A stretch of 64,000 nucleotides of DNA from Candidatus Saccharimonadota bacterium (GTDB lineage Bacteria > Patescibacteriota > Saccharimonadia > Saccharimonadales > Saccharimonadaceae): contig JAFWLB010000003.1 in the NCBI GenBank assembly GCA_017514025.1, forward strand, positions 124,001-188,000, written 5' to 3'. Shown here one piece after another: positions 6,106 through 10,614 of the stretch. Each line of letters starts with the position of its first letter. Positions within the stretch are counted from its first letter, which is position 1. A model generated the notes under the pieces. That model saw nothing but the letters and a program-made list of their open reading frames with translations. It had not been told where the DNA came from and did not search any database. Position numbers and translations under genes: made by a program.

Positions 6106-6942
6106 ATGACTGAAGAAAGTCAACCAAATACCAACCAAAATCCGGCTAAAGAAAACCCGGACATTTCCGTCAAGGAATACCGCGCAACCAAACGCAAGCT
6201 CAAAGAGCTGGAAAAGAAAAACTGCCAGAAGATTATCGCCATTCCCTGCTCTGGTGACCAAGGCTGGTACGAAATCGCTGAGCGTTCAGCCCTCATATAT
6301 TACTACGAGGTCTGTCAAAAACTAGACACCAAAAACAAATTCCTCGCAGACAACCACAGCTATTACGACCAATATGAAATCGGCTACATGCGCTCCAAAG
6401 GTGTCGACATCATCCGCGAGCGGATCAAACAGGCCGGTCTCTATCTCTCGGAAAGTGAAACCAATAATATCTACACCTTTAATCTCAACGCCAAATTTTC
6501 CAACCAAAAATTAGCCACCCTCAAAAAACGTGAGCACGGCCGCCGTCTCAACAATCTCACGCCAATCCAAGCCAACAACCTTGACCCCGAATTGCATCAC
6601 CTACTCAGCACTTCGGCCACTCGGCTACACCGCATATGTAGCTCTCGTTTGGATAAGCTCTCCAGCAGAATTAACGGTACCAAAATCATTAATCTGATCG
6701 ACAGCCTCCTCATTAAGTACCACCAAACGACCATGCTCAGCAAACACCACTGCAAACGCATCCGGTCCCAACTCGAAAGCATGCGTAAGGATATTTATCA
6801 ACTTATCCTCGAAGTCAAAATCCTCGGCGAAGCCAAACTTTGGGACCTGGAACTCTGTGCCAGTATCTCAGAATCCCTCTATGGAGCCCGCGACCGAATC
6901 GAAACTCACCTCAGAAAAATCATCAGCAAAGGGGAATTCTAA
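6106..6942 (+). CDS. Putative DGR accessory protein
   Basis: A 278-aa protein of unknown family directly upstream of the DGR reverse transcriptase, with the stop TAA touching the RT ATG. The start at ATG 6106 follows a strong GGAGG. The first 35 residues are polar and disordered-looking. The remainder is predicted mostly helical and rich in Lys/Arg, with a C-terminal 95 residues (about 190-278) of amphipathic helices. In BPP-1-type DGRs the RT partner is Avd, a basic helical-bundle protein of about 130 aa that binds RT and TR RNA. Position, basic charge and helical C-terminus suggest an equivalent role here, but this protein is twice that size and I see no sequence match to Avd. The function is inferred from context only. 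Confidence 0.6.
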   Translation: MTEESQPNTNQNPAKENPDISVKEYRATKRKLKELEKKNCQKIIAIPCSGDQGWYEIAERSALIYYYEVCQKLDTKNKFLADNHSYYDQYEIGYMRSKGVDIIRERIKQAGLYLSESETNNIYTFNLNAKFSNQKLATLKKREHGRRLNNLTPIQANNLDPELHHLLSTSATRLHRICSSRLDKLSSRINGTKIINLIDSLLIKYHQTTMLSKHHCKRIRSQLESMRKDIYQLILEVKILGEAKLWDLELCASISESLYGARDRIETHLRKIISKGEF

Positions 6943-8196
6943 ATGAAGCCAACCGCGGACTTAGAACAAATCATCAAAGAGATAGAACAACACGGCATAC
7001 GTACTTGGCTCATTGACGTCCTCACTAAAGCTTTTCGCGAAGCTCGCAAACACAAACTCAAAACTTTCAACGAACACATTTACGAAGAAAACTGGTCCGA
7101 AAACATCATCAAACTCGCCGATGCTGTTTTGGAACGCTATTATCGCCCCAGCTCTTCCATTTCTTTCGTAATCTTTGACCCCATGATTCGCGAAATCTTT
7201 GCCGCCCCTTTCGTAGACCGTGTCATCCACCATCTCCTCTACGAGCTTCAGGGCGGCTGGTGGGATCACCGTTTCATCGAGGACTCCTATAGCTGCCGCC
7301 AAAACAAAGGTACCCTCTATGGCGTCCTTCGCACGCAACAAATGATGCGCCAGGCAACCAAAAACTTCACCGAAGAAGCCTATATCATCAAGTTAGACAT
7401 TCGAGGCTATTTCATGTCGCTTCCCCGTGTCAAACTCTATGAGCGCGTCAAATGGGGCCTCAAGCAACAGTTCAAGCCATACCTCAACCGCCCTGCTGCT
7501 TTTGAGCTATACAAACTCTGCTGCTTTCTCTGGCAACAAGTCTTGTATGACGACCCCGTCAACAAGTCTCGTCGCCGCGGCCCGTTGAATGCTTGGGACA
7601 GTCTTCCACCCGAGAAGAGTCTTTATACTCGCCCTTTCGGTTTTGGCATAGTCATCGGCAATCTCACCTCCCAACTGGTCTCCAACATCTACCTAGACCA
7701 GCTGGATCGCTTTGTCAAATTCGAACTCGGGTACAAGTTCTATGGTCGCTATGTAGATGATTTCATCTTCATCGTTTCCAAAAGCCAATACGCCCAAGCC
7801 AAAAAAGACATCAAAAAAATCGAAAAATTTCTAGAAGAAGAGCTCCAGCTCACTCTTCACCCCAAGAAACGCTACTTCCAATCAGTCTACAAGGGTGTTT
7901 CGTTTCTCGGCACTCGGATTTATCCCCACTGCCGCTACCCGTCCAATCGTATCCAACAAAAATTCAAAAAAGCCCTGCATGATCTCCCTTCCGAAAATTT
8001 CAAACCCGAAACGCTCATTTCTTACTTAGGGTTTCTCAAGCACATGCAAGGTGACAAATTCGTCGCCAGAATGTTCCGGAAGTATCATCTGGACTACCGG
8101 CTCTACCTCGAACTTAGGTCTCCCGATTCTCGCCCGATCTTAGAAATCGTCGAAGACCTTCGTCAGCAGGCCATCGCCAATCAAAAACAAAAATAA
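6943..8196 (+). CDS. DGR-type reverse transcriptase
   Basis: A 417-aa RNA-directed DNA polymerase. Visible motifs are FIEDSYSCRQNKGT (111-124), the motif A catalytic Asp in KLDIRGYF (Asp152), IGNLTSQLVSN (238-248), YVDDF with the two catalytic Asp (270-274), and the LHPKK/FLGTRI blocks near the thumb. The IGNLTSQ segment, where group II intron and retroviral enzymes have QGxxxSP, is the recognised hallmark of DGR reverse transcriptases. There is no maturase, endonuclease or integrase domain. The enzyme copies the TR RNA into cDNA with errors at adenines, and that cDNA replaces the VR of the target gene. Its ATG directly follows the accessory gene stop, so translation is probably coupled. The gene converges on the TR. 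Confidence 0.95.
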   Translation: MKPTADLEQIIKEIEQHGIRTWLIDVLTKAFREARKHKLKTFNEHIYEENWSENIIKLADAVLERYYRPSSSISFVIFDPMIREIFAAPFVDRVIHHLLYELQGGWWDHRFIEDSYSCRQNKGTLYGVLRTQQMMRQATKNFTEEAYIIKLDIRGYFMSLPRVKLYERVKWGLKQQFKPYLNRPAAFELYKLCCFLWQQVLYDDPVNKSRRRGPLNAWDSLPPEKSLYTRPFGFGIVIGNLTSQLVSNIYLDQLDRFVKFELGYKFYGRYVDDFIFIVSKSQYAQAKKDIKKIEKFLEEELQLTLHPKKRYFQSVYKGVSFLGTRIYPHCRYPSNRIQQKFKKALHDLPSENFKPETLISYLGFLKHMQGDKFVARMFRKYHLDYRLYLELRSPDSRPILEIVEDLRQQAIANQKQK

Positions 8197-8200
8197 AAAA

Positions 8201-8248
8201 TCCCCACAAAATAAGGCCCCACTCTAGGGGTCTTATTTTGTAAGGGGG
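8201..8248. terminator. Bidirectional hairpin between RT and TR
   Basis: The 15-nt arm ACAAAATAAGGCCCC (8206-8220) pairs with GGGGTCTTATTTTGT (8227-8241) with one wobble. TCCCC and GGGGA extend the stem. On the minus strand the hairpin is followed by a T-rich run, so it should stop the TR transcript. On the plus strand it closes the RT operon. Confidence 0.75.
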
Positions 8249-8253
8249 ATGAG

Positions 8254-8486
8254 GGAGTCGCGGAAAAGCTACAACAAGCCTAAAGCGCCGGCTACGACTA
8301 CTCCGCTACGCAGCGCACAGACCTCCCGTTGTTGCGGTTGTTCTGGTTCGCTGGCCACACGCCACCTGAATTGAAGTTCAAGTTGTAGCCGTGGGTACTA
8401 GGAGTAGCTACCGTACTAGACCAGTAGTTCCCGTTGTTGCGGGCGTTCCACAGAGTAGTACCATTCACGTTGCCCGAGCGGACAAA
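8254..8486 (-). repeat. DGR template repeat (TR)
   Basis: A 233-bp segment aligned without gaps to 8828-9060. In the target sense (minus strand) it is rich in AAC codons, the usual DGR design, because adenine mutation of AAC reaches many amino acids and no stop codon. All 13 differences from the VR fall on TR adenines. The first 75 bp on the plus strand (8254-8328), which are the 3' end in the target sense, are identical in both copies although adenines are present. That marks the invariant initiation (IMH-like) side. Confidence 0.95.
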
Positions 8487-8598
8487 CCGAACAAGCGGCT
8501 TTTGTGGGCATCTCCTGCCTTGGATCCTCCTTGGAGAACTCAAGTTTATTACTGAACTCCGTTATTCGTGTTTTACCACGACGCGAAGTGTGCCCATC

Positions 8599-8612
8599 CG
8601 ACTCCTGTCCTT
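8599..8612 (+). repeat. 14-nt inverted match to sequence bordering the VR
   Basis: CGACTCCTGTCCTT here is the exact reverse complement of 8821-8834, which spans the outer edge of the VR. It lies within the predicted TR leader. Confidence 0.7.
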
Positions 8613-8789
8613 AGACCAATCTGCTGCCAGATGCAGACCAGAAGTTTATCGTATACTGGGGCTCTAGTGCCCCGGGCTCAGACCAAGCCTCGCCCGCACG
8701 ATGTTCCGGATTGGCTTACCCCCTGTATCCTCATTTTACCACATTTTTAATTTTTCAGCTTTTAAATTCTTTCGGCTCCAGTTAGCTGC

Positions 8790-8830
8790 AAAAAAATCCT
8801 GTCCCTGGGTTATTTTTTCCAAGGACAGGA
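8790..8830 (-). terminator. Intrinsic terminator of the DGR target gene, abutting the VR
   Basis: Arms 8797-8808 and 8819-8830 pair over 12 bp with one mismatch, and on the minus strand seven T follow (8790-8796). The hairpin overlaps the first 3 bp of the VR. A hairpin just downstream of the VR also enhances retrohoming in other DGRs, so it may serve both purposes. Confidence 0.8.
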
Positions 8831-9060
8831 GTCGCGGAAAAGCTACAACAAGCCTAAAGCGCCGGCTACGACTACTCCGCTACGCAGCGCACAGACCTCC
8901 CGCTGTTGCGGTAGTACTGGTACGCTGGCCACACGCCACCTGAACTGAAGCTCAAGTAGTAGCCGTGGGTACTAGGAGTAGCTACCGTACTAGACCAGTA
9001 GTACCCGCCGACGCGGGCGTTCCACAGAGTAGTACCATTCACGTCGCCCGAGCGGACAAA
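8828..9060 (-). repeat. DGR variable repeat (VR)
   Basis: It covers codons 519-580 of the target gene plus 44 bp after its stop. Changed TR adenines correspond to plus-strand positions 8903, 8913, 8916, 8922, 8945, 8951, 8958, 9003, 9008, 9009, 9011, 9012 and 9045. Seven are A to G and six are A to T in the coding sense. No other base differs. Confidence 0.95.
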
Positions 9061-10614
9061 GTATAGAGGATCACCGTTTTTGCCAGTAGTCCGGATCATG
9101 TTAAAGCCATTAGTGGTGAACTGAGTATTGGTAGAGCCAGCTAGGTCCTCACCGTTAGTCACACCCTGGGCCTTCAGCAACTTATTAAACTCAGAGATTG
9201 TAGTACCACCATTCGTAATACCCTTCGGCAATCTCCAGCCCGCCGGACAAATCGAGTTCGGCATCACGGTGTATTGCGCCGTATAAGCAGTAGAATCGTT
9301 CATCGCGTTAGCCGCCGTGAAGTTATAGTAGTTACCGATCTTATAGTGCGCACACTCTGCTGCAGTATGACCTGCCGTAGTACAAGCCGATAGCGTACCG
9401 TAAACCGTGTCATAGCCAGTAGTCCCGGACGTATACATATACACATCATTGCCGTTTAATTGGCCCTCTGCTTGGTATGGCAGGTAGTTTTGGTTACTCC
9501 ACCCACTTACGTTCGTAGCTTCGGCGTTATGGTACTCGAAGTCGCTAATGGTTGCTGGTGTACCAGTCACTGTGGCGTTGCCCGACGGCGTCCAGGTAAT
9601 CACACCAGTGTCACTATCTACCGAGTAGCCATTTAGCAAGGTCGTACCGTCTGCCGCATAAGCCGTAGTTAGGTTGGTGTTTTCCGAAGTCAGCTCAATC
9701 GGATTGCCATTATAAGTACCACCGATCTGGAGATCCAGGTTCTGCGTCATCCAAAGTTGCGAAGTAGTACAGTTATCTCCGTCGTAGTTGGTACAGAGCC
9801 GAGCCACCGTGTAGCTCTTGCCATCACGACCATCCACCACGGTCTTTTCCTCACCTACAACTAAACTACCGCCCCAATATTGGACATCCTGCAAGTTATC
9901 CGCTGACGGCATGCTACCGCTACTCGGGTGGACCAAAGTATATTTGACCTGCCCAGTATAAGTCCCAGCCGGTTGCGTCCCGCTAATATAGGCGCCATAA
10001 GTAGTAGTCAATTTCGAACCGAGGGTAGCATCAGTGGCAGAAGAGTAGTTAGCTACTTTTTGATAAGTAGCCGGCACGGCGTGATAGCTGTCATAGCTAT
10101 TTAGAATGGAAAGGTTGTTAGGCAAATAGGATTGGCTACTGTCGGTGACCTTAGCCAGCTTCATTGACCATTTGGAAGTAGTATCACCAGACGAATAAAC
10201 GCCAGTTTCAATATCGTAATTATCGCCTAGGGCACTACTGTGCAAAACTGTATTCTTGCCGGCCGTAGCTGGCGTAGTAGTTCCACCAGTAAAGCCTACA
10301 GCATAGATACCGTAACCATTAGGATCATTACAGAAGGTTTGGATAGTAGTACTACCTATGCCATTTTCGTATGGTTTAACTCCTCCACTAGTATAATCAC
10401 CCGACCAAATACCATTTGGCAAAGTCGCGGTGTGTTCCGTAGTGACGTTCGCCGTCATGGAGCAAGTAGCCTTTACTGTCACTGAAGCAGTAGACGACTT
10501 GCTATCGCTAGCTACATCTGTAGCAGAAACTGTCGACATCGAAAGCACCGCGCCAGACGCCACCGTCACGCCGACAAGTCCCCCTATCGTTAAAAAATTG
10601 CCTAATTTGTGCAT
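8872..10614 (-). CDS. Secreted DGR target protein with variable C-terminal lectin-like (FISUMP-type) domain
   Basis: A 580-aa exported protein. Residues 1-32 form a signal peptide (HK, a hydrophobic stretch, a likely cut near VSA-TD). Residues 33-230 are a Ser/Thr/Gly-rich beta region. From about residue 240 the pattern DGRDGKSYTVARL, QLWMTQNLDL, ICPAGWRLP, YYWSST and a final RSVRCVAE matches the Fibrobacter succinogenes major paralogous domain, a formylglycine-enzyme/C-type-lectin-like fold used by many DGR targets. Variable residues are 524, 535, 536, 538, 553, 555, 557, 565, 567, 568 and 571. Asn 526, 532 and 570 remain as in the TR. No C-terminal anchor is visible. The ATG at 10614 follows AGAAGGG, and the gene has its own sigma70-type promoter. 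A ligand-binding or host-contact role is inferred from the family. Confidence 0.93.
   Translation of the reverse strand: MHKLGNFLTIGGLVGVTVASGAVLSMSTVSATDVASDSKSSTASVTVKATCSMTANVTTEHTATLPNGIWSGDYTSGGVKPYENGIGSTTIQTFCNDPNGYGIYAVGFTGGTTTPATAGKNTVLHSSALGDNYDIETGVYSSGDTTSKWSMKLAKVTDSSQSYLPNNLSILNSYDSYHAVPATYQKVANYSSATDATLGSKLTTTYGAYISGTQPAGTYTGQVKYTLVHPSSGSMPSADNLQDVQYWGGSLVVGEEKTVVDGRDGKSYTVARLCTNYDGDNCTTSQLWMTQNLDLQIGGTYNGNPIELTSENTNLTTAYAADGTTLLNGYSVDSDTGVITWTPSGNATVTGTPATISDFEYHNAEATNVSGWSNQNYLPYQAEGQLNGNDVYMYTSGTTGYDTVYGTLSACTTAGHTAAECAHYKIGNYYNFTAANAMNDSTAYTAQYTVMPNSICPAGWRLPKGITNGGTTISEFNKLLKAQGVTNGEDLAGSTNTQFTTNGFNMIRTTGKNGDPLYFVRSGDVNGTTLWNARVGGYYWSSTVATPSTHGYYLSFSSGGVWPAYQYYRNSGRSVRCVAE

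Follow-up and report, generated by a model that had tools for sequence, protein, structure and literature searches.

The BPP-1 type of diversity-generating retroelement (DGR), from a Bordetella phage, is laid out in the order mtd-avd-TR-brt, TR being the template repeat. To our knowledge, which does not extend to the main surveys, a structured 5' leader has not been reported for a DGR, nor has a replication bias of natural DGR targets. So-called inverted DGRs, found in Shewanella, Vibrio and Photobacterium, form DiGReF group 4 and account for 3 reverse transcriptases (RTs) in a set of 155 elements (PMC3521204).

In the window, the 64,000-nucleotide stretch of DNA analysed here, ORFs and repeat comparison delimited a complete DGR at 6106-10614, made up of an accessory gene, an RT gene, a TR and an exported target (Table 1). 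Each of these parts, together with the variable repeat (VR), lay where the original prediction had placed it; that the TR runs antisense to the RT gene is an addition to that prediction. That the cassette belongs among DGRs is secure, and its build is distinct.

Table 1. Features of the DGR locus, in window coordinates
Feature	Position	Strand	Remarks
Accessory gene	6106..6942	+	278 aa; MutS-domain-I-like N-domain and Avd-type four-helix bundle
DGR-type reverse transcriptase	6943..8196	+	417 aa; IGNLTSQ, YVDD
Terminator-like hairpin followed by U-run, predicted 3' end of TR transcript	8198..8253	-	Fold of -33 kcal/mol over 90 nt; sequence
Template repeat (TR)	8254..8486	-	233 bp; antisense to RT gene
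Putative 5' leader of TR transcript	8487..8738	-	-10-like box TAAAAT at 8738-8733; 5-bp helix 8595-8591/8510-8506
Inverted repeat, hairpin/terminator of target gene	8794..8827	-	Directly 3' of VR; sequence
Variable repeat (VR)	8828..9060	-	233 bp; 13 substituted adenines
Target gene	8872..10614	-	580 aa; signal peptide, beta-sandwich, FISUMP/C-type-lectin end in VR
Substituted VR adenines	9045, 9012, 9011, 9009, 9008, 9003, 8958, 8951, 8945, 8922, 8916, 8913, 8903	-	TR/VR comparison

The reverse transcriptase and the exported target

Both motifs originally read in the RT are present in its ORF, and the first of them fits the (I/V/L)GxxxSQ motif of DGR-family RTs. The protein matched Pfam RVT_1 (2e-10). 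When a profile of the RT family was compared with solved structures, the RT of the BPP-1 DGR (8ub7) was the best match at E 1.2e-44, and the next best reached 2e-15. These matches indicate that the enzyme belongs to the DGR RT family.

The target showed a signal peptide by inspection and matched TIGR02145 (FISUMP) at E 2e-11, over the cut-off for that family. Its last 62 codons and the stop lie inside the VR, in agreement with the predicted copy at the C-terminus. DGR targets carry a C-type-lectin or Ig fold where their genes end in a VR, and the present gene likewise ends in its VR, with a FISUMP domain of the C-type-lectin type there. The structural model had a pLDDT of 76, rising to 84-93 at the C-terminus, and the C-terminal domain gave a Z of only 7.7 against the Legionella Lcl lectin domain (8q4e). 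With an exported target and a C-type-lectin-type domain at the VR, varying surface recognition is plausible; the protein would recognise the surfaces of a host or of neighbours. A pilin- or TasA-like sandwich was considered for the N-domain and set aside, its Z lying below 8 and too weak for use. No copies of the N-domain were found elsewhere in its own genome.

Ahead of the target gene, on the minus strand, 10835-10720 holds a perfect sigma-70 promoter (TTGACA-17-TATAAT), after which two hairpins (z -4.2) and a U-run occupy ~83 nt. This element stops 105 bp short of the gene and is a candidate small RNA or leader attenuator; it had no Rfam match and no copy in other DGR loci.

The VR differs from the TR at adenines

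The TR and VR of the window are 94.4% identical over 233 bp, with 13 mismatches. Read on the target coding strand, the TR holds 50 A in those 233 bp. The 13 variable sites listed in the original prediction proved to be TR adenines without exception, an outcome with a chance probability of ~5e-10 if mismatches were random, while none of the 183 non-A positions differed. Substitutions were A>G in 7 cases and A>T in 6, and every one affected codon position 1 or 2. Could the two copies be a chance repeat or the product of gene duplication? Both are ruled out because the differences are A-specific.

When 90 DGRs from across the genus were pooled, the VR differed at 1899/5231 TR adenines (36%), compared with 106/15058 other bases (0.7%). 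Adenines of AAC, the hotspot reported for BPP-1 (PMC12875486), were changed in 70%. The 90 TR/VR pairs contained 868 A>G, 803 A>T and 228 A>C changes, the last being about four times rarer than either of the others. Adenines preceding G were hardly altered in these pairs (3-5%).

We wondered if the window might hold an inactive remnant, a DGR whose parts persist while its VR is no longer rewritten. Its VR is altered at 26% of TR adenines (13/50), among the lowest rates, as a remnant's might be. However, all window ORFs are open and the catalytic motifs of the RT are intact. Moreover, TRs of different DGRs are only ~70% alike, yet TR and VR here agree at every non-A position; hence the window VR was homogenised recently. 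We consider a remnant very unlikely, and the window's own copy is probably active.

Footprints of activity came from two genome pairs of the genus, closely related within each pair, a near-identical genome of the window's species not having been found. In one pair (L034/L035), the RT region had 7 differences in 2003 bp and the TR 1/207, whereas the VR had 26/207; 24 of those 26 fell at TR adenines, and one mirrored the TR change. In the other (L043/L138, RT 96% identical), all three TR substitutions recurred in the cognate VR, and the VRs differed at many adenine sites. We conclude that TR-to-VR copying continued after the genomes parted. The pattern looked for in the original prediction, in which VRs vary at TR adenines and the TR stays nearly fixed, was seen in both pairs.

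Host genomes and insertion site

The window belongs to a gut-associated, Saccharibacterium-like genome (G000) that is 679 kb in size and 97% complete, and the nearest named relatives of its RT come from 'Candidatus Saccharibacteria' of goat duodenum and water-deer ileum. The RT was carried by 94/174 genomes of the genus, in up to four copies per genome. G000 has three DGRs, the window's and two more (L036, C6:256396-257607; L037, C5:230582-231619), each having a TR of its own, a single VR and a differing target; a search of the genome for additional VRs of the three TRs found none. Among 129 distinct RT loci, the TR lay immediately beyond the 3' end of the RT gene and antisense to it in 101 and was in sense orientation in 4 exceptions; the rest yielded no TR/VR pair, often because the contig ended. 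Contigs frequently stop 1-3 kb from the RT, long contigs included (L129, L133, L146), and mixed VR alleles or repeats may break assembly there.

DGRs are common in phages, and the window RT has a match among the PHROG RT families as well. Perhaps, then, a phage- or plasmid-borne DGR sits in this chromosome by chance? The target had no PHROG match, and the flanks contain UvrD, gpsA, RmuC, SDR, rubrerythrin-like and WxLIP-like genes, which are housekeeping or cell-surface genes; as originally reported, no phage genes were seen among them. Seven relatives have gpsA next to the WxLIP-like gene, with ~9-50 bp and no cassette between the two. The cassette lies between these genes in G000 and G035 and beside them in G009. 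We conclude that the insertion is chromosomal, because relatives keep empty sites, and regard a phage or plasmid element as exceedingly improbable. Both these sites and the relatives of the RT agree with the patescibacterial chromosomal location first proposed. In G056, the gpsA-WxLIP site has a gene like the target N-domain alone (L118, 2262-2927), with neither lectin end nor DGR.

A two-domain accessory protein

The gene upstream of the RT had been described as basic and helical. A helical bundle was indeed present in its AlphaFold model (pLDDT 91), but the protein has two domains, and the N-terminal one (~residues 22-150) is alpha/beta; the four-helix bundle occupies residues 161-276. Against BPP-1 Avd (4dwl), the bundle gave Z 15.3 with an rmsd of 1.6 over 109 residues, and against 8ub7 Z 15.0, though S23-type bundles score equally high (Z 17). 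It also matches Avd-like phage proteins, and one accessory homologue matches the PHROG family 'Avd protein of DGR' (1.6e-4). By this Avd likeness, which S23-type bundles equal, and by the PHROG match, the cassette has the Avd/accessory protein of a DGR.

The window protein had no match in Pfam or NCBIfam; Pfam and PDB sequence searches with its homologues gave a helix-turn-helix in some and no family for the main part. Against the MutS_I profile (PF01624), the N-domain scored 26.6, the maximum of 100 shuffles being 19.7; the alignment was co-linear over 100 columns, at a low probability (36%) and with no Pfam hit. Foldseek listed no solved match for the N-domain as modelled within the full protein. 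We describe the protein as a putative fusion of a MutS-domain-I-like domain to an Avd four-helix bundle, 'MutS-I-like' denoting a low-probability match. Wu et al. 2018 reportedly described MutS-like (MSL) DGR accessory proteins, which perhaps have the same N-domain.

The long accessory gene was present at 109/129 loci. A Cro/CI-type helix-turn-helix is added at the N-terminus of 6/41 accessory proteins (L051, L057, L060, L061, L017 and L074), which suggests DNA binding or self-regulation. We found no MutS_I domain in G000, in 11 genus members or in G046 and G048, while 11/14 control genomes had one. The hosts may therefore lack mismatch repair, and DGR mutations could then be spared.

A structured region 5' of the TR

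Where might the template RNA carry its recognition structure? The gap between the 3' side of the TR and the RT stop codon had a median of 42 nt in 90 DGRs of the genus. The last codons of the RT showed no extra synonymous conservation, in a test that structure without sequence conservation would escape. For want of such constraint, the idea that the 3' end of the RT gene conceals an antisense spacer was rejected.

On the other side, TATAAT occurred 150-340 nt 5' of the TR in 61/100 leaders, compared with ~10 in shuffles and 31 on the opposite strand, where a weaker excess was thus also seen. The window leader alone folded with a z of -2.1; together with a sister locus, it gave an alifold energy of -26.9 versus -10.6 (sd 3.0) for shuffled alignments. 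In the window's clade, the 5-bp helix was compensated at 5/5 pairs over six loci. In one clade of eight, 22/39 pairs within the leader had compensatory changes, and the covariation score was reached by 0/500 shuffles. A single covariance model for all leaders detected its own clade alone and missed those of other clades, and no Rfam family was found for the leader. The sequence flanking the VR on its 3' side had z below -2 in 40/90 loci versus 32/155 control flanks.

Leader covariation was slight in some clades (the L069 group), as it would be if the region 5' of the TR lay outside the template RNA and were the relic of a promoter or some unrelated small RNA. However, the conserved region begins at the promoter-like box and continues into the TR on the same strand, and its structure is kept by compensatory changes across several DGR clades. 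We judge an unrelated element unlikely. The leader probably belongs to the template RNA and would be recognised by the RT/accessory protein.

Target orientation and replication

Cassettes occurred in two orders. In 81, the target, accessory and RT genes follow one another on one strand and end at an inverted TR; in 20, including the window, the accessory and RT genes face a TR and target that both lie on the other strand. Strands were called where flank GC skew was > 0.1, confirmed at fourfold sites, and the G-rich strand was taken as leading, an assumption backed by gene orientation and by the rRNA of one locus, which lay on that strand. The leading strand carried the target in 77/80 cases, the RT in 64/80 and flanking genes in 406/614. 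At skew thresholds of 0.03 and 0.15, the target was on the G-rich strand in 81/87 and 66/67.

Does this bias merely reflect the strand preference of long or exported genes, and not a need of retrohoming? Such genes do favour the leading strand: 87/117 (74%) of those of >=450 aa and 69/98 (70%) of exported/membrane genes of >=300 aa. The target nevertheless exceeded both controls (p 3e-5 and 3e-6). Furthermore, the RT tree showed 12 changes of layout, 11 of RT strand and 3 of target strand. Seven independent pairs of unlike layout gave a mean of 6.4 pairs with opposite RT strands (median p 0.03), compared with 0.6 with opposite target strands. In E. coli, the BPP-1 DGR likewise edits 8- to 25-fold more in the same target orientation (PMC12875486). 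We regard simple strand preference as rather doubtful, though still a serious contender. Our exploratory strand analysis suggests instead that the target has to be co-directional with DNA replication, and its natural orientation fits the dependence on replication direction that BPP-1 DGR editing showed in E. coli.

Proposed mechanism and significance

Taken as a whole, the locus is very probably best explained as a cellular DGR whose template RNA has a 5' leader and which rewrites a lectin-like exported target. A minus-strand promoter would give a transcript in which the TR is preceded by a structured 5' leader and followed by a short 3' hairpin. The RT and the two-domain Avd-type protein, to which the leader may bind, would copy the TR into cDNA with misincorporation opposite adenines. 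This cDNA, perhaps entering via the lagging-strand template, would take the place of the VR, at the 3' terminus of the gene for the exported lectin-like protein, while the TR stays fixed. With 42 TR adenines of the window in codon positions 1 or 2, such replacement would vary the binding surface.

It is a tentative proposal, about which we are almost evenly divided, that one Saccharibacteria genus holds a separate DGR architecture: an independently transcribed template RNA with a 5' recognition structure, a MutS-I-like/Avd fusion in MutS-less hosts, and lagging-strand-dependent retrohoming that holds the target co-directional while the RT module flips. Its novelty is provisional. Inverted DGRs are already known, though they were rare (PMC3521204).

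With many natural repeats, these cassettes test by which route DGR cDNA enters a chromosome, orientation with replication having so far been measured in one phage system in E. coli. For biochemistry, they provide a differently arranged template RNA and an accessory protein with two domains. Over half of the genomes of the genus, at less than ~1 Mb, devote up to four cassettes to surface-protein variation.

Comparison with known DGRs

The common DGRs of Patescibacteria (cf. clade 2 of Roux et al. 2021, PMC8144416) are likewise cellular and have CPR hosts. A sense TR ahead of the RT prevailed among the other Patescibacteria sampled. In seven DGRs from the phylum, this TR measured 112-132 bp and was placed upstream of a shorter RT at a distance of 190-430 nt; unlike the cassettes of the genus, they had no long accessory gene beside the RT. 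A search of the phylum (L250-L264, L278-L284) showed a second, shorter DGR RT type, with ~50 residues fewer between motifs, to be widespread in Patescibacteria, in the canonical VR-TR-RT order.

With BPP-1, the cassettes share A-specific mutagenesis, the AAC hotspot, a DGR RT, an Avd four-helix bundle, a C-type-lectin target end and a hairpin after the VR. Unlike in BPP-1, the TR is 3' of the RT and antisense, ~42 nt from the RT stop, no extra synonymous constraint was seen at the RT 3' end, and Avd is fused to another domain. The conserved RNA structure lies 5' of the TR here, whereas BPP-1 has a structured 3' spacer (PMC12875486).

In DiGReF group 4, as in the window's cassette, the RT faces one way, whereas the TR, VR and target belong to the opposite strand. 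In contrast to the rarity of that group, the antisense TR was found here in 101/105 loci in which a TR was found, and in 81 loci, again unlike group 4, target and RT share a strand and the TR alone is inverted.
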